Shown piece by piece: positions 19,979 through 34,027 of a stretch of 64,000 bases of DNA. Positions within the stretch are counted from its first letter, which is position 1; each line of letters begins with the position of its first letter. The notes beneath the pieces were generated by a model. The model was not told the origin of the DNA. It searched no databases and saw nothing but the letters and a program-made list of their open reading frames with translations. The translations under genes and the position numbers were made by a program. Source of the stretch: Muribaculaceae bacterium (GTDB lineage Bacteria; Bacteroidota; Bacteroidia; Bacteroidales; Muribaculaceae); contig JAFLTP010000002.1 of assembly GCA_022510405.1 (NCBI GenBank), positions 1 to 64,000 of the forward strand. The letters run 5' to 3'.

Positions 19979-21796
19979 TCACATAAAATCTTCCGGTCCG
20001 TATACACCAAAATCAGGATCCTTTTCCGGCTGCCATGTCCTAACTTTTATTATTGGATTGGCCGGGTCATTGATGTCGACCATCAAAAACAAATATCCTT
20101 TATCTCCATAATTTGAAGAATAGTATTCTTGAGAAATCTGGATGGCATAAACTTCTCCTCCCTTCCCGAGTTTCCGAACTTCATTATCCGCAAAACGAAG
20201 ATTGATATATTCTTTACCTTCAAAACTTCTTTTAAGAGCCTTCAAATATGAATCCTTTGTGTGGCGATTGTATTTAATGATATCCCCTCCAAATTGGATT
20301 CCATTTATTTCCCCATTCAAAGGCTGATTTTGTCTATACACTACTGCTCCGGTTATTATCACGGCATTATCGTCAAAAATAGTTTCTATATAATCCAACC
20401 GTTTTAAAGCATAGGCAGTTTGATAATTTTCTAAGAAATTCATGATCGCAAATCTTGCCTTTTCATCCCAAAATCCTTTCCCAAGAATATCATCTTCAGC
20501 TGTTTTCCCTAAACCGAAGGAAAGATTGTCAATCAATCCTTCTTTATTAAATGTAAAGACAATATCTTCAACAAAAGACTTCCTCATTCCGCTTGCAAAA
20601 GAAAACGACAGCTGAAGACCTCGGGCATAAACAGTCCCATTATCTTCGTAAAATTTCACATCCGGAGTTCCCACCACTTTTGCTTTCCCATATTTAAGTA
20701 ACCTTTCATAGATGTCATAACCATAAGGAGTGAAATAAGATTTTACATTATCATAGTTTTTTTCTACAATACTTTTTATAATTTTATCAATTACATCCTT
20801 GGTTTCTGAAGAAGCTTGAAACTCTTTAGGTTTACTTATTTTTTCTTGAGAAAGTTTAGAAAAAGAGTTTGAATTTTTTGAATGTGAGTTCATCCGGATA
20901 TCATCATTCTTTTTGAATGATTGATAAGCATTTCTCATTGGAATTGTTTTGATAGACTCCAAGACTGCTTCAACATCTTTATCTATATGTGCCTCCCCTT
21001 TATATTCATATTCATATTTCAACTGATAATTCTCATTTTGATTGCCTGATGCCATCTCTACTATTCCGACACCATCTTTTGCACTGTAGATATTTCCCCA
21101 ATCACTTCCATCGAAATATGTATAATCAATGGAATTTACCGGCAAACCTTTATAAGTAATAAATATTTCGATATCATCACCATTCTTTTTAACATATGAA
21201 CTATCCAGATTGGAAAAAATCTCATTCATCTGTCTTGGTATCCATGTCATAAGCACCACTTCATCTCCTTCTTCTGTTTGAAAAGTCATCCCGTCGGGAT
21301 ATTGGAGAGATTGAAGTAAAGAAAGAGCCCAGTAATAATCCTTTAATGCTACATCAATTTTACCCGCCCTTTCAGCATTAACAGCCGACTGGACATAATC
21401 CTTAATTTTAAGTTTTCGGAGTTCAAACAGTTTATTTATTTCACTTCTTTTAATCCATCTGCCCACATGGGCCTCAGGTTCATTTTCCAATATAACCTTT
21501 TCGGTGTTGTTAAGGGTTGCCTGTGAATAAGTTTTCACTATTGAACCGAAATTTGTTGTAGCATCAATATTTCCGTTTATGTTTCTTTCATTCTCGGTTA
21601 TTGTGGTTGTCCCCTCCACATTAACTGTGATTTTGCTGATAAGGTCATTTAAAGCCTGTTTATCCGCTTCAGCAACAGTCACACCCCAACCTTCCCCATA
21701 TAGATACTGGGGACTGTTAACCACCTGTTCCCAAGTTTGAGAATAGGAAGGAATAATTAATAATAAAAATAAAAAAGTTAAAAATATATTTCTCAT
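19979..21796 (-). CDS. Secreted LPP20-like protein, last gene of PEGA-BACON-FGE operon
   Basis: 605 residues with a signal peptide (MRNIFLTFLFLLLIIPSYS), no lipobox. The segment after it (about 30-110) has the LPP20-like pattern: a W-x-x-V...YLYGEGWGVTVAEADKQALNDLISKITV start, in which modified residues and alternating strands/helices match the small OM-protein family seen in H. pylori LPP20 and many Bacteroidetes. The helical stretch AGKIDVALKDYYWALSLLQSLQ looks TPR-like. Two later segments (about 325-430 and 440-560) resemble NTF2-like stress domains repeated in tandem. Predicted periplasmic. It starts 12 bases after the FGE-like gene. The exact function is unknown. Confidence 0.7.
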   Translation of the reverse strand: MRNIFLTFLFLLLIIPSYSQTWEQVVNSPQYLYGEGWGVTVAEADKQALNDLISKITVNVEGTTTITENERNINGNIDATTNFGSIVKTYSQATLNNTEKVILENEPEAHVGRWIKRSEINKLFELRKLKIKDYVQSAVNAERAGKIDVALKDYYWALSLLQSLQYPDGMTFQTEEGDEVVLMTWIPRQMNEIFSNLDSSYVKKNGDDIEIFITYKGLPVNSIDYTYFDGSDWGNIYSAKDGVGIVEMASGNQNENYQLKYEYEYKGEAHIDKDVEAVLESIKTIPMRNAYQSFKKNDDIRMNSHSKNSNSFSKLSQEKISKPKEFQASSETKDVIDKIIKSIVEKNYDNVKSYFTPYGYDIYERLLKYGKAKVVGTPDVKFYEDNGTVYARGLQLSFSFASGMRKSFVEDIVFTFNKEGLIDNLSFGLGKTAEDDILGKGFWDEKARFAIMNFLENYQTAYALKRLDYIETIFDDNAVIITGAVVYRQNQPLNGEINGIQFGGDIIKYNRHTKDSYLKALKRSFEGKEYINLRFADNEVRKLGKGGEVYAIQISQEYYSSNYGDKGYLFLMVDINDPANPIIKVRTWQPEKDPDFGVYGPEDFM

Positions 21797-21808
21797 TTAA
21801 TAATTCAC

Positions 21809-23113
21809 TCAGTTGTTGGAAATGGCAAGCCGTAGACCATTTGGGGATGAATAAACATATGAAGAAGCAGTACATTCTGATGCGGATGAATTGTAATATC
21901 CTCCATAATAAGAATAATTTTGTACCGCTTCCCATATATTCCCACTCATGTCATAAAAACCAAGTTCATTGGGAAGTAATTGTTTAACCGGATGTTTCTG
22001 TCCATCAGAATTTCCATTAAACCAAGCAACATCATAAATATTATTACTACCGGAATAAGTAAATCCTTGGGATTTATTGCCTCCCTTAAATGCAAACTGC
22101 CATTCTTTGAGCGTGGGAACCCTAAAATTTAATCTATAGTTTTTATATAATGTCGTGCAAAATGAATTCCAATCAGTACTACTAAGACCGGATTTTGGCA
22201 ACAAGCTTGATTCTCCTTGTTGCGTCACGGCATAGTATAATTCTTCTGTTGTTTCTGTTTCTGCCAACAAGAAATTTCCTTCTTCATATTCTACCGGTAT
22301 CATCACTAAGTCAACACCATTTATGTTGAAAACTGCATGATTTCTCCAACCACTATGGGAAGAAACCGTAGGAAGATCTACATATCCGCTTTCGCCTGCC
22401 TTATATATGGTGTTACTAAATTGCTTGGTGAATGCTGCATCTGAATAGATAACGTTTACTCTGGGTTCTTCCGAATCAGTAAACATACCGTAAATATAAT
22501 CCGTATATGTACCCTCAACTTGCATAGATAACATATCTGATGTTAACGTATAATTCCCGTTGGATGTATCAAATGCCGTGTAGCAGGATATTCCATATAG
22601 ATTCAACTTCTTGTTGTTTTCACCCTGAAATCTTATTCTTCCTGTTTTAGGAGAAAGTGTTGCTGACACGGTTAAATCCCCTCCGTCATATATATAATCA
22701 GCTTCAGAATCTTCATAAATACATGATGCGGAATTCAAAACTATAACTGAACCCATTTCTGAACCGGGATTGTCGACATACACTGCTAAACATTTTGTAG
22801 TGGCACCTGTCACTAAACTGCCAAAATAGGTGAGTTGCCAAGATCCGTTATTATACACCGCATCCCCATATGTGGTGCCATTTGATGTATCAAATATAAG
22901 ATACACCGTGTCTCCATTTTTCCATTCTTCCGCAGAACGTGTTTCCGGTTCATCAGAAAAATTGGACTTAGTAATTTCCATCGTCAACCTACAAGTCTTA
23001 GGTTCCGGCTGCAATGCATCGTCCGGATCATTTAGTATATCCGACTCCGAACTACAGCCCAATAAAATGAAAGTCAATAATGCAACTAAATTGATGTTTA
23101 TTATTTTATGCAT
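21809..23113 (-). CDS. Lipoprotein with fimbrillin-like N-terminus and truncated FGE-sulfatase (SUMF1) domain
   Basis: 434 residues. Lipobox LLGC near residue 19. The N-terminal half (about 40-250) is beta-rich and resembles fimbrillin-type domains of Bacteroidales (TRSAEEWKNGDTVYLIF). The C-terminal 170 residues match the formylglycine-generating-enzyme fold: FNINGVDLVMIPV, RVPTLKEWQFAFKGG, YDVAWFNGN, HPVKQLLPNELGFYDMSGNIWE, ending LRLAISNN. The two catalytic cysteines of true FGE are not seen, so it is more likely a binding or structural member (as in many Bacteroidetes surface proteins) than a sulfatase activator. Operon partner of the BACON and LPP20-like genes. Confidence 0.75.
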   Translation of the reverse strand: MHKIININLVALLTFILLGCSSESDILNDPDDALQPEPKTCRLTMEITKSNFSDEPETRSAEEWKNGDTVYLIFDTSNGTTYGDAVYNNGSWQLTYFGSLVTGATTKCLAVYVDNPGSEMGSVIVLNSASCIYEDSEADYIYDGGDLTVSATLSPKTGRIRFQGENNKKLNLYGISCYTAFDTSNGNYTLTSDMLSMQVEGTYTDYIYGMFTDSEEPRVNVIYSDAAFTKQFSNTIYKAGESGYVDLPTVSSHSGWRNHAVFNINGVDLVMIPVEYEEGNFLLAETETTEELYYAVTQQGESSLLPKSGLSSTDWNSFCTTLYKNYRLNFRVPTLKEWQFAFKGGNKSQGFTYSGSNNIYDVAWFNGNSDGQKHPVKQLLPNELGFYDMSGNIWEAVQNYSYYGGYYNSSASECTASSYVYSSPNGLRLAISNN

Positions 23114-23134
23114 GGTTCAAAAATATTTTAATAT

Positions 23135-25336
23135 TTATTTATTTGTCCAATTTTGTTCAGAGGAATAATCAACTACATTTAGATTGAGGGAACCTTCCGA
23201 TTTGGTAGTCCAATTTTCTTCATTCCCGAATCCTTCAATAGATATGTTTAATGAATTATGTGAATCATTATTCCAATTTTTATCTGTTGTGTAACCAATT
23301 ATTTTAATCGATAAATCTCCATTTTTAACATCATTCCAATTTTGGTCGCCAGGATAACCTTCAATTATAAAAGACCCTCCATATCCTACTTGAGTCACAG
23401 GAATTGAAATGGAATAAGATCCCTCTGATAATCCTTGCAAGGTCACAACCACACTTCCTTCACGAGAATCTGAAGATTCGTTTTCTTCAGCTATAACTAA
23501 GAAACTATTATTTTCATTTTCTTTCAAAGAAATCCACGGAGTTTCCGTTGATAAGGAATAATTTCCATCAGTTTCAACATAAACCGGAGTCGATTCTCCA
23601 CCTTTTGAAAAGAAAGAGATACGTGTTGTGGAAACTCTAAGATACATTCCGGCTTGATGCACATTTATCTTTAATCCTTGTGAAAATTTAGGTGTAAAGA
23701 TTATCACTGCCTCACGAGATTTTAAGGATGGATTTGGTGCAACCACTATATTGATTGTATCTTCTCCTTCACCTGAATATTTAGAAAGGCTCAACCATGA
23801 GGAAACTCCTTGTCCTTCTATTGTGGCTGACCATTGCTGATTAGTTCCTAAATCCAGGCTATGGCTCCCCCCTTTTGAGTCAAATGTGAAAGAATCACCG
23901 GCAATTTCAAAATATTTTGATTGTTGTGAAACTATAACTTTAATTTCTTTCTCTCCGAAATAATATGTGATTTCTCCTGTACGGTCTTGTTCAGTTGGAT
24001 TCTCTTCAACTGACACTGTGACTGCGGTATCTCCCTTTCCTGATTGCGGACTAACGGATATCCAGTCTTGACTAACATTAGAAGTCCATTCTCCATCAGC
24101 CGTAATTTCCAATGTCTGCGTTCCTCCTTTATCGCTAAATTCCAAGACAGAGGAACCCGGAGTCAGGGTTTGTCCTGATTGCATCACACTTGTTATATAT
24201 GAAATATCTAAACCCGGAGATGTCCAGACTATTTCCCCATTGCGTGAATTTACTAAAGGATTTTCTTCAACTGCAATTGTAACCTGTGTATTTCCTGTCC
24301 CTGACGCTGGGTTAACGGTAATCCATTCCGGTTTTGATTTTAGTTCCCAGGATATGTTGCTTTTTATTGTAATGGTTTCAGAAGATGCTCGAGATGAAAA
24401 AGAAAGCACAGAATCGGTTTCAAGATATAAACCTTTTTGAATAATTTTTATTTGAAGTCGACTTTCATTGCCGGTCAGAATTGTGACATAACCTATACGT
24501 TCATTAACTGATCCATTTTGTGAAACTTCTATATTAACTTGTAATTCTCCCGCACCACCCTCTGATGGATCGACCTGAATCCAACTGTCTGAAACAATCG
24601 CCTCCCATTTGCTTTCCGACACAATTGAAATGGAATATCTTGAAGCAGTATTTTCGAAATCAAGGGATAGATCTGATACTGTGATTTCTGACGGGAATTG
24701 GGTCAAGTGTATATTAGCATAAGTTTTGTTTTCATAACTTAGATACACAATTGCATTCCTGTAAGAAGAGGATGGATTTTCTTCAACCGATATTGACAAT
24801 GAATTGCCGTTTTCTCCCTTTTGTAAAGTTACCCAATTCTGATTTGTAGAAGCCTCCCATTCACAATTTGATTTTACTACAATAATTTGCGTTTCATAAC
24901 TTCCACTGAATTCCAAGCTTGTTTCTTCAAGATTCACATATGGAGTGTTTCCTTGTTGAGAGACATAAACACTTTGTTCATAATTCCAATCTTCAGCATT
25001 CGATCTTAAATAAAAATATGTTGATCTTGGTTCCGATGTATCGTTTTCACTGATTTCCAAAGTTCCATTCTCCGAAGAGTCCCCCGATGTGGGATCAATG
25101 GTTACCCAAGAAGGATAATTTTCGAATTTCCAAGAACTTGAAAGTGTTTCCACATAAAAATCTTCAGTGGCTGAATTTCCGTTATAGACACTGAAAGAAT
25201 TAGGAATTATTGATAAATATCTTGGTGTTAAAGATGGGTATCTTCCTTCCTCTAACGACTGCACATCTTTACATCCCGTTAAATATATCAATAGGATAAT
25301 GAGTATAGACAATGGATTTTTTAACAACTTCTCCAT
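23135..25336 (-). CDS. BACON-repeat lipoprotein with C-terminal NW repeats
   Basis: 733 residues; lipobox LTGC (Cys about 22). Seven BACON-like immunoglobulin-fold repeats of about 85-90 residues, each with a conserved W-x-x-(W)-(I/L)-x-(V/L) core and a closing V-x-V-x-x-(N)P-x-x-x-x-R-x-G segment. BACON domains are Bacteroidetes modules thought to bind glycans, mucin or act as spacers. The last 80 residues hold four short repeats of about 21 residues with the core GY-x-x-DxNWN (GYPGDQNWN, GYTTDKNWN, GFGNEENWT, DYSSEQNWT), which I do not recognise. Expected on the outer membrane, exposed or periplasmic. It begins 13 bases after the PEGA gene. Confidence 0.85.
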   Translation of the reverse strand: MEKLLKNPLSILIILLIYLTGCKDVQSLEEGRYPSLTPRYLSIIPNSFSVYNGNSATEDFYVETLSSSWKFENYPSWVTIDPTSGDSSENGTLEISENDTSEPRSTYFYLRSNAEDWNYEQSVYVSQQGNTPYVNLEETSLEFSGSYETQIIVVKSNCEWEASTNQNWVTLQKGENGNSLSISVEENPSSSYRNAIVYLSYENKTYANIHLTQFPSEITVSDLSLDFENTASRYSISIVSESKWEAIVSDSWIQVDPSEGGAGELQVNIEVSQNGSVNERIGYVTILTGNESRLQIKIIQKGLYLETDSVLSFSSRASSETITIKSNISWELKSKPEWITVNPASGTGNTQVTIAVEENPLVNSRNGEIVWTSPGLDISYITSVMQSGQTLTPGSSVLEFSDKGGTQTLEITADGEWTSNVSQDWISVSPQSGKGDTAVTVSVEENPTEQDRTGEITYYFGEKEIKVIVSQQSKYFEIAGDSFTFDSKGGSHSLDLGTNQQWSATIEGQGVSSWLSLSKYSGEGEDTINIVVAPNPSLKSREAVIIFTPKFSQGLKINVHQAGMYLRVSTTRISFFSKGGESTPVYVETDGNYSLSTETPWISLKENENNSFLVIAEENESSDSREGSVVVTLQGLSEGSYSISIPVTQVGYGGSFIIEGYPGDQNWNDVKNGDLSIKIIGYTTDKNWNNDSHNSLNISIEGFGNEENWTTKSEGSLNLNVVDYSSEQNWTNK

Positions 25337-25349
25337 AGGGGAACCTTAA

Positions 25350-27389
25350 TTAAAAAAATACATTAAGACTTACATTTAGTCCAAAACCCTCTGAAAAGCC
25401 TTTGATTTTTTTAGAAGCGTCCATGAGTAATTTGTAAGCTTCAGATTTACTTACATTCAACTTATATTGTGGCATGACAGATATGCCTAAATGATTAATT
25501 AATAATACCTCAAATCTTGCTCCAATAGGAATACTTGCTGCACTTGCTCCATTGGCTATTACCTCAGTCGCGTCGCTTTCTTTTAGTTTCACCATTTGTA
25601 TTCCTACTTGTGGAGTTATTCTAAAGCGTCCGGCAAAGCTAAAACCATAACCTAATTTCAAGTCCATCCCCCATGGAGTATAAGTAGCCATGTCCGGGTA
25701 TTCGGGATGACCGGTATAATTCCAATATATGGTTTCGCTTTTGCCTAACCCTTGAATATAATTAGCCTCTATGTTCATATTTTGGATATAACCTCCAAGA
25801 CCTACGTTTATCCCACTTAAGCCAACAATATTATAGCCAGCCTGCAAGTAGCAGGAATTTTTCTTTATTAAATTTTTTCGAAGTTTGATATTAAGGTCAG
25901 GAGTATTGGCACTCAAGTCCATATTCTTAGAGTAATCCAAGTAACCATCTTTTTGAATTGAAATATTGTAATTACCTGTGAAAAGGTCAAATCTATAGGG
26001 AGAGGTTCCGGAGTATCTGCCGTTGATATATACAGAAGCGTTAGAAGGATAAGTATGTAATGTTGACGAGCAATAACCATTTAAGTGCACATCTAATTCG
26101 CCTGATTTATCTTTTTCCACGATTAGATTCCTTTCTTCGCTCTTATATCCTTTCAATTCAAATGTAACCTTATAATTCCCTATCAATATTCTTTTATTAT
26201 TTATCGGTGTTATTCCCTCAAATTTATCATTAAGATACACTGATGCTCCTTTTGGTGAACTGTTTAAGGTTATATATCCATATAGTGGATGGGGTGACTC
26301 CAATCCTACGCTTTGTCTTATCCCGGTCTGGACCTCGATAATTTTTGTTGTTGTTGCATGAGAAGGTTTCTTTACCTCTATTGTGTGTCTTCCTTCTTCC
26401 AAGCGGGTGGTGAGCTTGTTGTTTAAAAATTGGAGAAGTTCACCATTATCATAAATTGTAACTTCCGGATCACTTATAAGAAAATCTACATAAGCATAAT
26501 TGGGATTTAAGGATGGATTTAAATTTACTGTACCGCTGTCAGTCACTTCAATATTGACAGAATAAGGTTTGTACAATTTCTGGTTTATTAATAGTTGATG
26601 GTTGCCACTTTTGATAGGGAAATCCTTAATAGGAATTCTACCTAATTGTTTTGAATCCAAAAATACCTCTGCCCCATCCAAATCATTTCCCCCGGGGATA
26701 TTTAAATAACCGAAAGCTTGTTTTAAAATAATCTCCTTTTTAGTGTTGTTCGGATTATCATTTATTTCTATATCCCCCTCTTCCGGATGATAATTATCTG
26801 CCACCACTCTATAATGCTTATTACCAAAAGGCAAATGTTGCACATAATGGCCATTTTGCTGTTTATCAATAATTATTCCATTTATATAAAGAGTTGCATC
26901 CGGAGGATAAATATCAAAAACAAATTCTTTTTCGTTATCATAATCTGTCACCAATTGATTCACTTCATTGGTAGTGAGTTTCATCCTGTAAGTTTTACCT
27001 TCTTCTAATCTCTTTTCATAAGAAAATGGTATTCTGCCCAAAATTGGGTGTTGAATTATTAAGTTTTTTACCCCTCTGGGTAAATATAGCCATATTTCGG
27101 CAGGATGTTCAGTATTTTGTGGTTCCACTGCAACTACTCCCAGGCTACCCGCATCAAATTGAAAACCTTTTTGTGTGGTTTCAATCTTAATCAAAGCGCT
27201 CACCTCCCCATTCTGATCTATTTTTTTAGTACCTTCACGAATTGCAGTTGGGTCCATCTCTTCAATCTTGAAAGATTCTACCCACATCTTTTGGTCATGT
27301 GTGGGAGTAATCTTTTCTTGCGAGAAGACTGATAAAAAATTAAATATGAAAATCAAGAGATAAAATCCCTTTAATTTCCCGGCTACCAT
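25350..27389 (-). CDS. PEGA-repeat protein with C-terminal outer-membrane beta-barrel
   Basis: The ORF track starts at a TTG (27395); the ATG at 27389 is preferred, giving about 679 residues, MVAGKLKGFYLLIFIFNFLSVFS signal peptide. After a beta-rich N-terminal domain, five PEGA-like repeats (about residues 165-510) carry the pattern x-V-Y-(I/L)-N-x-x-x-x-G-x-(T/S)-P-x-x-x-x-x-x-G-x-(Y/H). The last 170 residues have alternating hydrophobic strands (YLQAGYNIVGLSGINVGLGG, LKLGYGFSFAGRF) and end in VSLNVFF, as expected for an outer-membrane barrel. First gene of a four-gene operon with gaps of 12-21 bases; likely the membrane anchor of a complex with the other three. Confidence 0.8.
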   Translation of the reverse strand: MVAGKLKGFYLLIFIFNFLSVFSQEKITPTHDQKMWVESFKIEEMDPTAIREGTKKIDQNGEVSALIKIETTQKGFQFDAGSLGVVAVEPQNTEHPAEIWLYLPRGVKNLIIQHPILGRIPFSYEKRLEEGKTYRMKLTTNEVNQLVTDYDNEKEFVFDIYPPDATLYINGIIIDKQQNGHYVQHLPFGNKHYRVVADNYHPEEGDIEINDNPNNTKKEIILKQAFGYLNIPGGNDLDGAEVFLDSKQLGRIPIKDFPIKSGNHQLLINQKLYKPYSVNIEVTDSGTVNLNPSLNPNYAYVDFLISDPEVTIYDNGELLQFLNNKLTTRLEEGRHTIEVKKPSHATTTKIIEVQTGIRQSVGLESPHPLYGYITLNSSPKGASVYLNDKFEGITPINNKRILIGNYKVTFELKGYKSEERNLIVEKDKSGELDVHLNGYCSSTLHTYPSNASVYINGRYSGTSPYRFDLFTGNYNISIQKDGYLDYSKNMDLSANTPDLNIKLRKNLIKKNSCYLQAGYNIVGLSGINVGLGGYIQNMNIEANYIQGLGKSETIYWNYTGHPEYPDMATYTPWGMDLKLGYGFSFAGRFRITPQVGIQMVKLKESDATEVIANGASAASIPIGARFEVLLINHLGISVMPQYKLNVSKSEAYKLLMDASKKIKGFSEGFGLNVSLNVFF

Positions 27390-27407
27390 AATCAAAAGAA
27401 CTTTTTA

Positions 27408-27415
27408 CAAATTTA
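27408..27415 (-). promoter_or_regulatory. -7 box (TAAATTTG) of PEGA-BACON-FGE-LPP20 operon
   Basis: Exact match on the minus strand, 18 bases before the ATG at 27389, so the leader is very short. A GTTGTTTT stretch about 20 bases further upstream may serve as -33. The nearness of the box to the TTG at 27395 favours the ATG. Confidence 0.55.
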
Positions 27416-27441
27416 AAAAATATGTCCTTATAAAACAACGA

Positions 27442-27468
27442 GAGGAAGCAGAAGAGCTCTGCTTCCTC
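27442..27468 (-). terminator. Terminator of the four-domain repeat protein gene
   Basis: GAGGAAGCAGA and TCTGCTTCCTC form a perfect 11-bp stem with a 5-base loop, followed on the minus strand by TCGTTGTTTTAT. It separates this transcript from the PEGA operon promoter that follows. Confidence 0.7.
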
Positions 27469-27548: not shown

Positions 27549-30500
27549 TTATCGTCGGATGAATTTCTTACCGTTTTTGATGAGGAGACCTTTGGCATTG
27601 GGACCAACTTGCTGTCCCATAATATTATAAACGGGAATGTTATCCTCATCCTGAGTAGCGTATATACCTTCCACACCTGCATCATCCGGTTCTTCTCCGG
27701 GATTATCTTCAGGATCATCGCCAGGTTCTTCTCCGGGATTATCTTCGGGATCATCTCCTGGTTGAACCTCTTCTTCGTCTCCGGGTTGTTCGTCTCCCGG
27801 TTCTTCATTGGTGTCGGAATACATGGGAGTAAATGTAACTTCGGGGAAAGTTCCATGGGCAAGGAAAGTTACTTCCGGTTCCTCTTCTGCTTCAGTCAAT
27901 ACAAAGGCACCACAAGGAACTTTGGTTCCTATAGCTCCTAAATAATAACTAACCCCTGCCAATACATTGAAAGTCAAGAAACCGGTATCATCACCCGGAT
28001 TTTCATCCATTCCGGCGACAACATAAGGGAATTGGGGTCTTACTTCTTCCGGCCTATCCCCAAATGGTATAAAATAAGAATAGGCATCCTGAGCATAGAA
28101 ATCAATCCAATAATATTCATTTCTCGGAAGAGTATAATGGATCTTCTGTTTCCCATTCGACCAACCCAAGGTGTAAGACATCGGACCTCTCAATCCATCC
28201 ATTACAACATACTGTTTGTTGGCTCTCATTTTTGTAAACACAGTCACCCAACCATCTTTCTCCGGAACAATTTCAACTACACTACCATATTCAAATCCCG
28301 TTAAATAGGTGTAGAAGCCAGGATTGCTGTTACCGGCAGCGCCATCAGATAGAACCAGGTCTGTGTCTCCCACTCTTACATATCTATAAGATCCATAAGC
28401 CGGGGTGATACCCCAATTGTCATCAAAAGCGGTGGCCATTGTACCGGCTTTACCTTCTGCAAAAATTACCCCACTATTTATCTCCAATTTATCACCTTTA
28501 ACTAAACCGGCGGCAGCTAAAGATTCCTCTGTAGCCTCACATATCATCCTATCCGGATTTAAGTCCATTTCGGGTGCATCACCCGGTTCAAATTCAGGTT
28601 CATCATCAGGTTTCTCTTCAGGTTTTTCGTCAGGCTTCACAACGGATCCCATATCATTAGGATCAAAAACCACTGTGGGATGGTCTTCTGTAGCAAGGAA
28701 TGTCACTGTCGGCATTTCATCGCTTTCTGTCAAAACAAACGAACCACAAGTGGCTTTTGAACCAAGCGATCCGAAATAATAAGTCTTACCGGCGGAAACA
28801 GGGAAAGTCAAGAAACCGTTGTTATCACTACTGGGCTCGTTCATACCTGCAACTTTCCACGGGAAATTAGGTTTTACTTCATCGGAGCCAAGCTCACCCC
28901 CAGCGCCAACAAAATAAGAATATTTGGGCGTGTCATCATAGTAAAATTCAAGTTCATGCCCCGCAACCACATAGTCCTCGAAGTCTATCAGATAATTTTC
29001 ATCGTGAGGCAGAGTGTAATAAATCTTTTCTGTTCCGTTGGAATATCCCAATGTATAAGCCAACGGTTTATCTTTACCCTCAAATACGACATATTGTTTG
29101 TTGGGATTCATTTTTGTGAACAGTGTCAACCATCCGTCCTTGGTAGGCGTGATCTCGAAAACCGCACCGGCCGACATAACTCCTCCGGCATAGTTTGTGA
29201 AAGTAGGATTCCAGTCACCTACAGCACCATAAGAGAGGGTTAAATCCACATCTCCTACCTTTACATTCTGATAGGATCCGCGTGGAGCATTGATACCCCA
29301 ATTGTCAGGGTAGGCAGTGGCAATTGTACCCACTGCTCCCTTGGCGAATACAACCCGACCCTCGATAGGTATCTTTCCCTCTGACACAAACCCGGCTAAC
29401 TCAAGTGATTCAAACGTAGCTTCACATGTCATCCGATCCGGATCAAAATTATCGGGCAAGTTATCAATAGATCCTAAGTCCGGTTTAACTTCCGGGTTAT
29501 CATCTGGTTGTTCGCCCGGATTATCGTCTGGAACCTCTCCGGAACCCATATAATTGGGATCAAAGGTCACTCCGGGAAGAGATTCGGTGGCAAAGAATGT
29601 CACTGTAGGCCGTTCATCGCCTTCAGTCAACACAAAGGAACCACAAGGGGCTTTTGAACCGTATGCCCCGAAATAATAAGATTCCCCTGCCTTAACTCGG
29701 AAAGTAATGAAACCGGTGTTTTCTCTTGGAGCTTCCCCCATACCGGCAACCACCCAAGGATATTGGGGTCTGACTTCATCCGGAGCACCTCCGGGTTGTG
29801 GTGTAAAATAAGTTGAAGCATCTCCTGCATTGAAGTCAATATAATAGTCTTCGGAATCGGAAGGAAGAGTATAATAAATCATCTGACTACCATCCGACCA
29901 ACCCAAGGTATAAGACATAGGACCTGACGAACCCTCCGTTATCATATAAGGCTTGTTGGGATTCAATCTTGTGAATAATGTCACCCAGCCATCTTTTGTA
30001 GGAGTGATCACGAATGCAGCACCATCGGAAAAACCTTGTGCATAATTTGGGAAATATGGGTTACTGTTGCCTACCACACCATACTCGAGTGTTAAATCCA
30101 CATCATTTACTCTTACATTTTTATATGCACCGCATGGCATGAAAATGCGCCATTCGTCAGGATAAGCTGTCGCAAGTGTGCCTGCAGCTCCTTTGGCGAA
30201 AACCAGTCTGCCCTCTTTTGGCATCCTTTCCATTTCAAAACCTGCAATCCGTAGTGATTCGGCCGTGGCCTCGCAAGTAATTCTGTTAGGATCAAAGTCA
30301 TCAGGCAGGTTATCAATAAGTCCTTCGTCCGGGTTATCTCCCGGTTCTTCTCCGGGATTATCTTCCGGATTATCACCAGGTCCTTCTCCGGGAATTACAC
30401 CAGAACCCAAATCATTGGGGTCAAAAGTCACTTCGGGAAGTTCTTCTGTAGCCAAGAATGTCACTATCGGCATTTCATCTCTTTCGGTTATAACATAAGG

Positions 30501-31232
30501 GCCACATGGAACTTTTGAGCCGAGTGCTGAGAAATAATATTTTCTACCTGCCTCTACTCGGAAGGTCAGAAACCCCGTGTTGTCTTTTAGAGAAGCTCTA
30601 CCCCATTCATCTTCTGGGGCGTATCCGTAGACTATACTTGGGAACAGAGGTTTTACTGCATTTGAACCGATTTCACCTCCGACCGGCATAAAATACTTCG
30701 AGGCATCATCGGCATTGAAATCTATATAATAATTGTCCTTACTTGGAAGAGAATAAAATATCTTGTCACTGCCATTTGAGTATCCTAAGGTATAAGCCAC
30801 TGCACCGGTCTCACCCTCAAACACCACATATTGTTTGTTAGGATTAATTCTTGCGAATAGGGTCAACCAACCACTTCTAACCGGAGAAATCTCGAAAACC
30901 GCTCCGGCCGACATCACTCCGGAAGCATAGTTGGTGAAAACAGGATTAGTGTTACCTACCACTCCATAGTTGAGAGTATAATTTACTTTATCTATTCTAA
31001 CATTCTTATATGAACCTGAGGGAGACATCATACCCCATTCATCTTCATAGGCTGTTGCAATAGTTCCGGCAGGACCATCACCAAATACTACTCCACCACT
31101 GATCCTTGATTTATAAGAATCTATAATACCGGCCTTCTCAAGCGATTCAGGATAAATCACACATGTGGTTTGTTGAGCATTTGCCCCCACAGCAAGGAGG
31201 GCAAATGCTATAGATATTAAATTTTTTATCAT
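27549..31232 (-). CDS. Large secreted protein of four tandem domains with acidic PGEEPGD linkers and C-terminal sorting tail
   Basis: 1227 residues. Signal peptide MIKNLISIAFALLAVGANA. Four copies of a domain of about 230-250 residues start near residues 22, 320, 615 and 900; each opens with a C-x-(A/I) motif, has G-Y-S-N-G and Y-(T/S)-L-P segments, F-L-T-F-x-V and ends in P-C-G-x-(F/Y)-V-(L/I)-T-E. One Cys at each end suggests a disulfide per domain. Linkers of 20-50 residues are rich in Pro, Glu, Asp and Gly. The C-terminus (VYNIMGQQV...KNGKKFIRR) is a short type-IX-like tail. I do not recognise the repeated domain. It shares an operon with the GH13 gene upstream (35-base gap), so a role in surface glycan handling is possible. 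Confidence 0.75.
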   Translation of the reverse strand: MIKNLISIAFALLAVGANAQQTTCVIYPESLEKAGIIDSYKSRISGGVVFGDGPAGTIATAYEDEWGMMSPSGSYKNVRIDKVNYTLNYGVVGNTNPVFTNYASGVMSAGAVFEISPVRSGWLTLFARINPNKQYVVFEGETGAVAYTLGYSNGSDKIFYSLPSKDNYYIDFNADDASKYFMPVGGEIGSNAVKPLFPSIVYGYAPEDEWGRASLKDNTGFLTFRVEAGRKYYFSALGSKVPCGPYVITERDEMPIVTFLATEELPEVTFDPNDLGSGVIPGEGPGDNPEDNPGEEPGDNPDEGLIDNLPDDFDPNRITCEATAESLRIAGFEMERMPKEGRLVFAKGAAGTLATAYPDEWRIFMPCGAYKNVRVNDVDLTLEYGVVGNSNPYFPNYAQGFSDGAAFVITPTKDGWVTLFTRLNPNKPYMITEGSSGPMSYTLGWSDGSQMIYYTLPSDSEDYYIDFNAGDASTYFTPQPGGAPDEVRPQYPWVVAGMGEAPRENTGFITFRVKAGESYYFGAYGSKAPCGSFVLTEGDERPTVTFFATESLPGVTFDPNYMGSGEVPDDNPGEQPDDNPEVKPDLGSIDNLPDNFDPDRMTCEATFESLELAGFVSEGKIPIEGRVVFAKGAVGTIATAYPDNWGINAPRGSYQNVKVGDVDLTLSYGAVGDWNPTFTNYAGGVMSAGAVFEITPTKDGWLTLFTKMNPNKQYVVFEGKDKPLAYTLGYSNGTEKIYYTLPHDENYLIDFEDYVVAGHELEFYYDDTPKYSYFVGAGGELGSDEVKPNFPWKVAGMNEPSSDNNGFLTFPVSAGKTYYFGSLGSKATCGSFVLTESDEMPTVTFLATEDHPTVVFDPNDMGSVVKPDEKPEEKPDDEPEFEPGDAPEMDLNPDRMICEATEESLAAAGLVKGDKLEINSGVIFAEGKAGTMATAFDDNWGITPAYGSYRYVRVGDTDLVLSDGAAGNSNPGFYTYLTGFEYGSVVEIVPEKDGWVTVFTKMRANKQYVVMDGLRGPMSYTLGWSNGKQKIHYTLPRNEYYWIDFYAQDAYSYFIPFGDRPEEVRPQFPYVVAGMDENPGDDTGFLTFNVLAGVSYYLGAIGTKVPCGAFVLTEAEEEPEVTFLAHGTFPEVTFTPMYSDTNEEPGDEQPGDEEEVQPGDDPEDNPGEEPGDDPEDNPGEEPDDAGVEGIYATQDEDNIPVYNIMGQQVGPNAKGLLIKNGKKFIRR

Positions 31233-31267: not shown

Positions 31268-34027
31268 TTATTTCACAATTACTTTTAGGGAATCTTTGCC
31301 ACTCTTTACGATATAAATACCGGAGGAAACGGATACACTTCCTTGACCTGATACCTGACCGATAACTTTACCATCGAGAGAGTAGACGCTTGCGATTCCT
31401 TCAGCATAATCAACAATAACTTCTCCGTGGCCACCATGTGCTTTCAAAGGATTTACAACGCTATCGCTGATGATGGATTTCACTCCGGCAGGTGTGAGGC
31501 TCGCACTACCAATCACAACATAGCAATTGGCCGGAACAGTAACTGTTTTTGCGGCAGCATCAAAACTCGGTTGACTGCCATATGATTTTGTAAGAATCAT
31601 ATAATTATCATTATTGGCACTTAAGAAGTCAACGGACATTGTTAAATTCCCGGTAATATTCGGATTAACCAAGGTGTAGAGTTCAAGATCACCGTACACT
31701 GAGCTCAAAGACCTGCCGTTATTCCAGTTGGATGAATTACAATTGATGGTGAAAGGCACATCCTTTGTAAACATCTCCGGGTTGCTTAATCTTACATCTA
31801 TAAGCTGGCAATAATTTTCATAAAGTCCTTTATGATAAGGATTGTCAAGCAAGCTCCAATTCACAATTTTCGGGTCTGTATTGTTGCCACCATCATTATT
31901 TTTGGTGTTCTGTGCATTACCAAGTTCTGAGAATTGCCAGATCATATGTGCTCCCGGTGACATTATCATTTGAGCTGCAGCAGATCCGCAACGCCACATA
32001 CTGTTCTGTACGTTACCCTGTACTCCTGTCTCGCCCCATTTGTCCTGTTTGTAGGCAAGTCTTTGCTCGTCATGGCTTTCGAGATAGGATACAGTCGAGC
32101 CCCAGGTTCTGCTGTCTCGTGGCGCGTAAAGACGGTTCATGTTGCTGTCTTGAGAATAACCCATCGCAAACTGACATGCCGCATCGTTCACATTGGCCCA
32201 GTTGAGCATACCGGTTTCAGCCATCTCATTCTCTTCCTTGGCATAAGCAAGATTTTCATTTATACAATATCCATTGGGATTGACACTCAAAATCACTTCC
32301 TGGAGATAACGCATTTCCGCTACGCGGCTTGCATTATAATCATTTGTTGCGGCGTCACCATTGTTGGCATATGACTCATTCAAACCAAGTCCCTTTACGA
32401 GGTCGAAACGGAAACCATCGAACTTATATTCCTCGAGCCAATATCTTATAACGTCGGCCCATTGCTCCTGTACCATCGGCATTCCCTGGTTCCAGTCGTT
32501 CAATACGCTATAGGCATGGGGAGCGTTCAGATTATAGAAAGGATTCTTGCCCGGTTGATACATCTGATACCATGGATGGAGACCATCGCTCTGGTTGAAC
32601 ACCATGTCAAGTATGACAGCCATACCGTTTTGGTGGCACAAATCAATGAATTCCTTATAGTCATCCGGAGTTCCATAGGCTTTGTCAACGGCGAAATAGA
32701 AGTTAGGATTGTAACCCCATGACATGTTACCGTTGAATTCCATTATAGGAAGTAGCTCTATGGCATTCACACCCAAACTCTTTAAGTAATCGAATTTTTC
32801 AATGGCAAGTTGCACTGTTCCGTTACCCTTTGCCTGACCTTCCGTACCGGTGAAATCGCGGAACAACATTTCATAGATGATAAGGTTAGAAGGATCGGGC
32901 CCTACGAAATCTGTCACCACCCAATCATAATCATTGATAGAACCCTGATAGATAGCCACCGGGACATTCTGACCATTAACTGCCTCTGTCGGATATTCAG
33001 GAAGATTGGGAAAGACATTGGTGTCAAGATATTTATCGTTGTATGGATCAAGCACAAGACGGGCATATGGGTCACCCACAAAGTATTCACCTCCGTCTAC
33101 AATATAGAAATAGCAATACATTGTGTCATTGTCCAGACCATTGACTGTGGTCCAGAAATAACGACCATTTTCGGTATCCTGATAATTCATAGCCTGGGAG
33201 CTGGTATAGGCATAATCATTCCACGAACCGACAAGGAGAACTTGTTCCTTTTGTGGAGCACCGAAACAGAAAGTAACACTACCGTCTGAATTCTTAACAG
33301 GACCCATTATTGGCGTACCCCCGGGGTAATCCACTTGCTTAGCATCTGAAACAAATGTAATAGACATGGATTCACTTACAGTTTCTCCATTTGCTGTGGC
33401 AGTGGCAACCACAGTGTAATCTCCCGGTTCCGGGAATAGATATTCCTTATCCAATGTCATGGCGTTGGAAACCGTTGCGATTGTCTCACTGTTGACTGTG
33501 ATTGAAAGATCGGCATTCTGACTGGCCGAAACAGTAAATTTCACATAAGCAGTCTCGGGGGTTATGATAGGATTAGCATTTGAAGTCAATGTAACCTGAA
33601 GTCCCTCTTCATATACTTGTAGAAAGATATCCGGACTTGTCTGCTGTTTGCCGTCTGAACTACGGATTACAAATTCTAAACCTATAACGTTTGTGGTGGA
33701 TACCGGTATGTTATAGAAATCCCGTAGATTACCTACATAAAGCATCCATAGGTTCTGGGAAACATACTGCAATTGGTATTTTTCTGAATTAGTACTCCAA
33801 TTGGGCGCAGCGTTCCATTGCGACGTAGTAGTGTCATAGCCGGTATGTGCGTAAAGCTTGGTTGTGGCAGACGCACCTTCAAAGGGGGTACCAGTAGCAT
33901 TAAAATAGATTTTGACATCTTGAGAAGACAACTGGAGGGGAGATGGAACTGAATATATTGTCTGTGCGTTTAACCCCAGCACACAGAAAATCATAGTCAA
34001 TAATGTTGAAAAGTAAATTTTCTTCAT
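31268..34027 (-). CDS. Secreted GH13 alpha-amylase-family protein with C-terminal sorting tail
   Basis: 919 residues. Signal peptide MKKIYFSTLLTMIFCVLGLNA. Order: an N-terminal beta domain of starch-binding type (about 25-130), an Ig-like segment, a CBM48-like domain (SVTFCFGAPQKEQVLLVGSWNDY, about 250-350), then the GH13 barrel (about 385-760). Catalytic motifs: YNPNFYFAVD (region I), DGFRFDLVKG with nucleophile Asp (region II), YCINENLA with the probable acid/base Glu (region III), YLESHDEQR (region IV). It should hydrolyse alpha-glucans such as starch or glycogen at the cell surface. C-terminus ends SGIYIVKSGKDSLKVIVK, a type-IX-like tail. No SusC/SusD pair is nearby. Confidence 0.9.
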   Translation of the reverse strand: MKKIYFSTLLTMIFCVLGLNAQTIYSVPSPLQLSSQDVKIYFNATGTPFEGASATTKLYAHTGYDTTTSQWNAAPNWSTNSEKYQLQYVSQNLWMLYVGNLRDFYNIPVSTTNVIGLEFVIRSSDGKQQTSPDIFLQVYEEGLQVTLTSNANPIITPETAYVKFTVSASQNADLSITVNSETIATVSNAMTLDKEYLFPEPGDYTVVATATANGETVSESMSITFVSDAKQVDYPGGTPIMGPVKNSDGSVTFCFGAPQKEQVLLVGSWNDYAYTSSQAMNYQDTENGRYFWTTVNGLDNDTMYCYFYIVDGGEYFVGDPYARLVLDPYNDKYLDTNVFPNLPEYPTEAVNGQNVPVAIYQGSINDYDWVVTDFVGPDPSNLIIYEMLFRDFTGTEGQAKGNGTVQLAIEKFDYLKSLGVNAIELLPIMEFNGNMSWGYNPNFYFAVDKAYGTPDDYKEFIDLCHQNGMAVILDMVFNQSDGLHPWYQMYQPGKNPFYNLNAPHAYSVLNDWNQGMPMVQEQWADVIRYWLEEYKFDGFRFDLVKGLGLNESYANNGDAATNDYNASRVAEMRYLQEVILSVNPNGYCINENLAYAKEENEMAETGMLNWANVNDAACQFAMGYSQDSNMNRLYAPRDSRTWGSTVSYLESHDEQRLAYKQDKWGETGVQGNVQNSMWRCGSAAAQMIMSPGAHMIWQFSELGNAQNTKNNDGGNNTDPKIVNWSLLDNPYHKGLYENYCQLIDVRLSNPEMFTKDVPFTINCNSSNWNNGRSLSSVYGDLELYTLVNPNITGNLTMSVDFLSANNDNYMILTKSYGSQPSFDAAAKTVTVPANCYVVIGSASLTPAGVKSIISDSVVNPLKAHGGHGEVIVDYAEGIASVYSLDGKVIGQVSGQGSVSVSSGIYIVKSGKDSLKVIVK

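Follow-up and report, generated by a model that had tools for sequence, protein, structure and literature searches.

A recurrent envelope operon of Bacteroidales that may encode a modular display complex crossing the outer membrane

Four adjacent genes in a Muribaculaceae bacterium (GenBank assembly GCA_022510405.1, contig JAFLTP010000002.1, positions 1 to 64,000, a 64,000-nucleotide stretch referred to here as the window) encode an outer-membrane barrel protein with PEGA repeats, a multi-BACON lipoprotein, a lipoprotein with an FGE-type domain and a secreted LPP20-like protein. The question that they raise is whether their products form a single structure and, if so, on which side of the outer membrane it lies. 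An earlier sequence-only reading of the window had proposed one surface complex, of a composition for which no system was described. We find that this envelope operon recurs among Bacteroidales of gut and rumen, that its outer genes are fixed and that the surface cargo between them can be exchanged, and we give a probability of about 0.5 to the reading that it encodes one modular display complex crossing the outer membrane. The PubMed Central literature on the combined parts of the system yielded no description of it, as the sequence-only reading had supposed, and no paper that brings PEGA and BACON together was found in the Bacteroidota-directed literature there, the papers listed for PEGA with the outer membrane being concerned with Treponema, sponge Thaumarchaeota and fungi; the parts are of known kinds, in an arrangement not found in the literature searched.

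Gene order and the exchangeable cargo slot

The four genes make up an operon that runs along the minus strand from 27389 to 19979 in the list of open reading frames (ORFs), with intergenic gaps of 13, 21 and 12 bases, in agreement with the earlier grouping by gaps of 12 to 21 bases. The single promoter that had been assigned to the set is also borne out, as one TTG-N20-TANNTTTG site lies ahead of gene 1, directly after a terminator-like hairpin. We take this pattern to be the Bacteroidales promoter consensus, and it occurs five times in the window against 1.23 occurrences expected. Because the hairpin is followed by the promoter-like site, the four genes look like one unit, apart from the upstream genes for a 1227-residue protein and an amylase-family protein. 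Gene 1 could start at the ATG at 27389 or at a TTG at 27395 (ORF 27395–25350). The signals and genes are as follows.

27442–27468, minus strand: terminator-like hairpin with a 12-pair stem and a T-rich tail, directly upstream of the promoter-like site
27408–27438, minus strand: promoter-like site TTG-N20-TANNTTTG, an exact pattern match, with 18 bases from its end to the gene 1 ATG
25350–27389, minus strand: gene 1, signal peptide, N-terminal domain (NTD), five PEGA repeats and eight-stranded C-terminal beta-barrel (ORF, domain searches and predicted model)
23135–25336, minus strand: gene 2, lipoprotein with seven BACON domains and a C-terminal repeat tail
21809–23113, minus strand: gene 3, lipoprotein with an N-terminal fimbrillin-like part (weak) and a C-terminal pseudo-FGE domain
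19979–21796, minus strand: gene 4, secreted protein, LPP20-like plus NTF2-like

Conservation of the domain order in other Bacteroidales had been set beforehand as the test of the proposal, with rarity of the four genes as neighbours as the outcome that would speak against it. The order of barrel, BACON and, after a variable interval, LPP20 does recur in many loci, and the genes cannot be called rare neighbours. Across Muribaculaceae, Prevotella and other Bacteroidales, the shared arrangement is an NTD-PEGA-barrel gene, a BACON lipoprotein gene, one or more genes for variable surface proteins, and an LPP20-NTF2 gene. Genes 1 and 4, which lie at the two ends of the operon, are each matched at E≤0.001 in 7 of 41 genomes, including that of the window. 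The best 80 of 214 confirmed gene 4 relatives, from a scan of named genomes, come from Muribaculaceae, Duncaniella, Paramuribaculum, Prevotella, Bacteroides, Paludibacter, Marinilabiliaceae and others, the closest among them being a Muribaculaceae protein with 70% identity. Prevotella ruminicola and Bacteroides salyersiae are among the cultured species that carry gene 4.

Three types of locus can be distinguished. In type (i), to which the window belongs, a five-PEGA barrel is followed by a BACON lipoprotein, a fimbrillin-like/FGE lipoprotein and gene 4; in type (ii), a barrel with two or three PEGA repeats is followed by a BACON lipoprotein, one or two large LRR_5, Fn3_assoc/CHB_HEX or Big_2 proteins, and gene 4; and in type (iii), gene 4 adjoins NTD-PEGA or NTD-PEGA-FGE proteins, often together with a protein of about 210 residues. 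A neighbouring gene is visible for 46 distinct barrel genes: BACON follows the barrel directly in 38 of these loci, and gene 4 lies on the same strand within the locus in 38 and belongs to an unbroken run in 31. As many of the loci were retrieved with gene 4 as the query, and none with BACON, only the BACON count is free of that bias. Genes 1 and 4 were also used as independent queries against 397 family genomes. For 27 of 41 barrel matches, gene 4 was on the contig of the barrel and no more than 25 kb away, on the same strand in all 27 and downstream in 26. These linkage counts are lower bounds, since scoring was limited to three candidates per genome and the assemblies contain many short contigs. 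Gene 4 itself, short forms included, was found in 101 of the 397 genomes, or about a quarter. Smaller versions of the two end proteins also keep company, with an NTF2-like domain within 2 kb of 33 of 42 small separate NTD proteins, and an NTD within 2 kb of 35 of 73 short NTF2-like proteins.

The middle slot is the variable one, holding LRR_5, Fn3_assoc/CHB_HEX or Big_2 proteins in related operons and the fimbrillin-like/pseudo-FGE lipoprotein in the window. A gene 4 tree (made by a quick method from 96 rows, 25 of them not typed, and with long branches that make its details unsure) places the window in a group of 14 rows (96*) from fimbrillin-FGE and barrel loci, and the label of a barrel with large cargo requires at least 12 changes on it, so that cargo type is not simply inherited. 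A C-terminal pattern like that of type IX secretion system (T9SS) substrates, scored with a regular expression written for this analysis, is present in 29 of 33 repeat-rich proteins in gene 4 loci, compared with 14 of 668 other ORFs over 300 residues; one repeat cargo protein reaches 21.9 bits with TIGR04183, whose cut-off is 23. A T9SS is probably present in the window's own genome, since it has a GldK/PorK gene (TIGR03525, 524.8 bits against a cut-off of 350).

Domain content and predicted topology

The domains to which the following paragraphs refer are located as follows.

26970–27287, minus strand: NTD of gene 1, about residues 35–140, without a Pfam match
25878–26933, minus strand: PEGA repeats of gene 1, about residues 153–504 (Pfam, our own profile and the model)
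25353–25862, minus strand: C-terminal eight-stranded barrel of gene 1, about residues 510–679 (predicted model, strands within 512–678)
23138–23380, minus strand: C-terminal tail of gene 2, residues 653–733, four repeats of about 21 residues with D-x-N-W-N
21812–22351, minus strand: pseudo-FGE domain of gene 3, residues 255–434, without the C-x4-C pair
21500–21733, minus strand: LPP20 domain of gene 4, residues 22–99
20012–20482, minus strand: C-terminal NTF2-like domain of gene 4, residues 439–595 (structure match and Cds6_C)

The sequence-only reading had described gene 1 as an outer-membrane barrel with five PEGA-like repeats, and both parts hold. PEGA (PF08308) scores 131.7 bits against a gathering score of 20.8, with four stretches passing individually in Pfam and five copies recovered with a profile built in this analysis. 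The barrel is supported by the predicted model and by its best structural matches, to OprF (4rlc, Z 16.3, root-mean-square deviation (rmsd) 2.2, 132 aligned residues) and OmpA (1qjp, Z 14.8, rmsd 2.5, 131 aligned residues). The model has a predicted local distance difference test score (pLDDT) of 87.5 and a predicted template modelling score of 0.43, so the arrangement of its domains is not reliable. In barrels with an even number of strands both ends face the periplasm, and with eight strands predicted for gene 1 its PEGA stalk is most likely periplasmic. The NTD has no match in Pfam, and the gene 1 profile gave a single weak match in the PDB, to a barrel; the structure-search rows for gene 1 cover mainly the barrel and hardly probe the NTD fold. 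The peptidoglycan-binding domain OmpA_C is not among the Pfam families matched by gene 1 at E≤1. Elsewhere in the genome of the window, genes 1 and 4 have no further copy at E≤0.001, and PEGA exceeds the cut-off in gene 1 only.

Gene 2 matches BACON (PF13004) with 209.6 bits against a gathering score of 25, in the seven stretches that had been claimed for it. In its tail, each repeat has the form D/E-x-N/D-W-N/D/T, and by eye at least one D/E-x-[NDE]-W is present near the end of 12 of 15 BACON-slot proteins of window-like loci (the window, L088, L089, L091, L093, L125, L186, L188, L189, L194, L197 and L209). The tail of L190 is divergent, and L183 and L185 are without the motif; L184, a barrel locus without a BACON protein, was left out of this count. 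The slot protein of L089 has lost all of its BACON domains and is a lipidated 125-residue carrier of four tail repeats. A profile of the tail repeat has matches at E≤0.01 in 5 of 247 genomes. In four of them (the window, G239 with two matches, G179 and G260) the matches are confident, and every one is a protein in the BACON slot of a barrel locus; the match in the remaining genome (G225, E 0.0069) is an unrelated ORF. BACON proteins of type (ii) loci often end instead in a short acidic D-N-P-x-P motif. The distribution of the repeats suggests that the gene 2 tail may be a docking element specific to the barrel operon.

The two halves of gene 3 fare differently with respect to its earlier description as a lipoprotein with a fimbrillin-like part and an FGE-type fold. 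The FGE-type fold stands, with FGE-sulfatase (PF03781) at 51.7 bits against 23.3, although the match is partial (profile positions 84–193 of 255). The fimbrillin family Mfa_like_1 (PF13149) gives no Pfam match at E≤1, and hhalign places the protein against Mfa_like_1 profiles in a weak, though co-linear, alignment of 214 columns (E 0.0036, probability 9%), such that the fimbrillin-like label is plausible but weak. Catalytic FGE proteins have a C-x4-C cysteine pair near the C-terminus. The last 110 residues of gene 3 hold a single Cys, and in lacking the pair the domain should not be an oxidase; its sequence is consistent with a binding module. Gene 3 scores 21.9 bits with the GldK/PorK family (TIGR03525), below the cut-off of 350, and is not that T9SS ring lipoprotein. 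The FGE/C-lectin fold also serves as a target of diversity-generating retroelements; the 3' end of gene 3, compared with its own genome (91.8% complete), matched itself only, all others having E≥0.126, and this candidate was rejected as having no template repeat there.

For gene 4, the label of a secreted LPP20-like protein holds at the level of the family. The protein itself falls just under the cut-off for LPP20 (PF02169, 24.3 bits against 25.9). Of 70 members of its family, 57 reach E≤0.01 with LPP20, and the family profile matches the solved LPP20-family chain 4kzs at E 1e-6. The model (pLDDT 82.9) begins with an LPP20/SHS2-like part, continues through helices and a beta-sandwich region, and ends in an NTF2-like domain. 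Residues 445–591 of this last part match 8uqf (Z 14.2, rmsd 2.2, 120 aligned residues) and 2r4i, a Cytophaga NTF2-like protein (Z 13.8, rmsd 2.1, 117 aligned residues); Cds6_C is found in 28 of the 70 family members, and the structural matches include the cell-wall enzymes Bd1075, Csd6 and Pgp2. Foldseek matches taken without realignment were scattered over several domains at high rmsd and were set aside. Within the LPP20 domain, about 33 residues (66–98) sit between the helix and the second strand, where they are poorly modelled and no hairpin is predicted. According to PMC12222027, the LPP20/SHS2 family has outer-membrane-associated ring formers, and in this family ring formation goes together with an insertion that follows the SHS2 helix and precedes the second strand.

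The lipid anchors bear on which of these proteins could reach the surface. A surface-lipoprotein motif (lipoprotein export signal, LES) of acidic residues just after the Cys is described in PMC5080379. The criterion given in PMC12578637 asks for at least two acidic residues among the first six that follow the lipidated Cys; 35 of 40 BACON lipoproteins and 7 of 9 FGE lipoproteins qualify, compared with 39 of 116 other lipobox candidates, and in two of the five BACON misses the lipobox rule had taken an earlier Cys. Gene 3 has two acidic residues in these six positions.

A display complex and its alternatives

Building on the observed gene order, domain content, conservation, exchange of cargo and specificity of the tail, we infer the topology, physical contacts and adhesion role of the complex as follows. 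Gene 1 would sit in the outer membrane as an eight-stranded barrel, with its NTD and PEGA repeats hanging into the periplasm as a stalk, as the even strand number suggests, and gene 4 would be a periplasmic partner that binds the NTD/PEGA side, as suggested by the repeated pairing of the genes. Genes 2 and 3 would be exported to the surface, where gene 2 may dock onto its partner through the C-terminal D-x-N-W-N repeats, and where gene 3, a lipoprotein with a putatively non-catalytic, C-type-lectin-like FGE domain, may occupy an exchangeable ligand-binding cargo slot, filled elsewhere by BspA-type leucine-rich repeat (LRR) or Fn3-associated repeat proteins with T9SS-like C-terminal signals. 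The role of such a complex could be to anchor adhesins, or modules that bind glycans or proteins, on the cell surface and to expose them there. The earlier idea of one surface complex is thus partly supported; as the predicted eight-stranded barrel implies a periplasmic position for the PEGA repeats and gene 4, it is better framed as a putative complex across the outer membrane, of which only the BACON and FGE/LRR parts would be outside. The NTD, the LPP20-NTF2 protein, the multi-BACON lipoproteins and the pseudo-FGE domains, which have no known role, would gain one testable shared context, and the operon offers a candidate anchor for BspA-type LRR adhesins.

Several described systems share features with such a complex. 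The Bacteroidota BAM dome (PMC12578637) has as one component BamG, a 14-stranded FadL homologue within an essential complex, with the surface lipoproteins BamH–K mostly outside the cell. Like the operon it uses an outer-membrane barrel as the platform for several surface lipoproteins; however, the operon barrel has eight strands and a PEGA stalk, and gene 4 was found in only a quarter of the family genomes. OmpA and OprF also join an eight-stranded barrel to a periplasmic part, but gene 1 is without OmpA_C, its periplasmic part is N-terminal and built of PEGA repeats, and dedicated lipoproteins are encoded with it. The FlgP/FlgT/Lpp20 proteins resemble gene 4 in its LPP20-like N-terminus and in the place of its insertion, which is that of the ring-forming insertion in the account of PMC12222027, and differ in that gene 4 is without flagellar context, has extra beta-sandwich and NTF2-like domains, and has an insertion that is of low confidence and not a beta-hairpin in the model. 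Fimbrillin loci of the Mfa/Fim type likewise contain lipoprotein adhesin subunits, and one related locus of small NTD/NTF2 proteins has three Mfa_like_1 lipoproteins, one of them with LRR_5, an M64 peptidase domain and BACON, whereas gene 3 of the window has only a weak resemblance to Mfa_like_1 and is not assigned to it by Pfam. BspA-type LRR surface proteins of T9SS bacteria are cargo of related operons, although the literature searched does not tie them to a PEGA-barrel/BACON/LPP20 operon.

A number of observations weigh against the display complex. The next gene is other than BACON in 8 of the 46 barrel loci; in the lower-bound search of the family genomes, 14 of 41 barrels are without gene 4 within 25 kb, and only 28 of 63 full-length gene 4 matches have an NTD match (E≤1e-15) within that distance. 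In one locus (L212) the barrel and BACON genes are visible, whereas genes 3 and 4 are not. The NTD-PEGA-FGE relatives show no barrel, and since most of them, with terminal residues judged by eye, are without a lipobox or a T9SS-like end, the FGE domain may be periplasmic there. In gene 2 of the window, a single acidic residue is present among the six positions that follow the Cys, fewer than the criterion requires for surface export to be predicted. The window operon is without T9SS cargo, and genes 1–4 have no match to the T9SS C-terminal signals TIGR04183 or PF18962 at E≤1 in Pfam and NCBIfam; dependence on T9SS could not be judged by co-occurrence, as GldK is found in 384 of the 397 family genomes and cannot discriminate. 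The physical association of the four proteins, their expression as a set and their function are all putative.

A real though minor possibility is that genes 1 and 4 form a periplasmic envelope-maintenance module, a scaffold from the outer membrane to the cell wall, with the surface lipoproteins as passengers of the transcript. This would account for the pairing of gene 4, in many Bacteroidales, with NTD-PEGA or NTD-PEGA-FGE proteins without a barrel or surface cargo, for the family of about 210 residues that adjoins gene 4 in most of its 39 matches, for nearby proteins of about 500 residues with a transglutaminase-like C...H...D pattern (weak Transglut_core, 14.0 bits), and for the cell-wall enzymes among the NTF2-like matches. 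Passengers would not explain why BACON is so regularly the gene after the barrel, or why large T9SS-type proteins lie inside the run, and a gene present in a quarter of the family genomes is not a housekeeping one. Capture of glycans, with the BACON and FGE lipoproteins binding polysaccharide in the manner of SusE/F or of a polysaccharide utilization locus (PUL) and the amylase at 31268–34027 as the enzyme, seems unlikely. BACON is common in PUL lipoproteins, and the amylase-family protein, with its T9SS-like end, is encoded just two genes upstream, but the terminator-like hairpin divides it from the operon, and Pfam and NCBIfam searches with the four proteins gave no match to SusC, to SusD or to carbohydrate-active enzymes.

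We consider it very unlikely that the barrel is a T9SS accessory, a PorV/SprF-type partner of co-encoded cargo. The T9SS-like ends of the repeat proteins in these loci and the GldK/PorK gene of the genome would fit such a role, whereas window-type operons hold lipoproteins only, with no repeat cargo, and the barrel matches OmpA/OprF and not PorV- or SprF-type proteins, whose barrels are larger than the eight strands of gene 1. The least probable of these explanations is that the genes are co-transcribed envelope genes of separate function; their domains are all common, promiscuous modules whose association is putative, but the order is conserved across families and, among the 247 genomes, confident matches of the repeat tail were found only in barrel loci.

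A more elaborate form of the display complex, which we regard as quite unlikely, would have gene 4 build a FlgP/FlgT-like ring under the outer membrane through its SHS2/LPP20 domain and insertion, with the NTD-PEGA stalks of several barrels docking into the ring and the D-x-N-W-N tails of the surface lipoprotein serving as short linear motifs that a pocket of the NTF2-like domain or of PEGA would recognise for docking. If true, Bacteroidales would share a ring machine that displays plug-in cargo at the surface and is neither flagellar nor secretory.

Neighbouring genes and related loci

Just upstream of the operon, 27549–31232 encodes the 1227-residue secreted protein, which has four long internal repeats (by eye), a T9SS-like C-terminal end and no Pfam match at E≤1. 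The next gene, at 31268–34027, encodes the 919-residue secreted amylase-family protein, whose C-terminal end resembles a T9SS signal.

Other loci show variations on the same parts. Three to four tandem NTD-PEGA(-FGE) genes lie beside gene 4 in L191 (509–9201, G321) and L099 (12016–18500), a local expansion of pseudo-FGE proteins. PARCEL repeats are a mobile repeat type also present in mycoplasmas, and make up cargo proteins in L102 (5039–9997) and L103 (6732–9917), with 457 and 669 bits to TIGR02167. A second conserved locus type, seen in L046 (1459–10517) and similarly in L047, L048 and L049, has Mfa_like_1 lipoproteins and a lipoprotein of about 1180 residues with Mfa_like_1, LRR_5, M64 peptidase and BACON domains (Pfam, on L046 only), which are followed by NTF2-like and NTD proteins and one LRR protein. 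In L053 (2929–9467, G014:C28), a gene with an NTF2-like domain lies downstream of genes for a 1025-residue tubulin-like protein (Tubulin_2, 176 bits) and small secreted proteins, and in L054 (3068–9598, G005:C46) an ORF of equal length, 1025 residues, precedes such a gene. Downstream of gene 4 in L102 (11910–15812) are genes for a protein of about 219 residues, a CHASE2-domain protein (68.8 bits) and a transglutaminase-like protein of about 540 residues with the C...H...D pattern, a hint that the locus may extend into sensing or processing.

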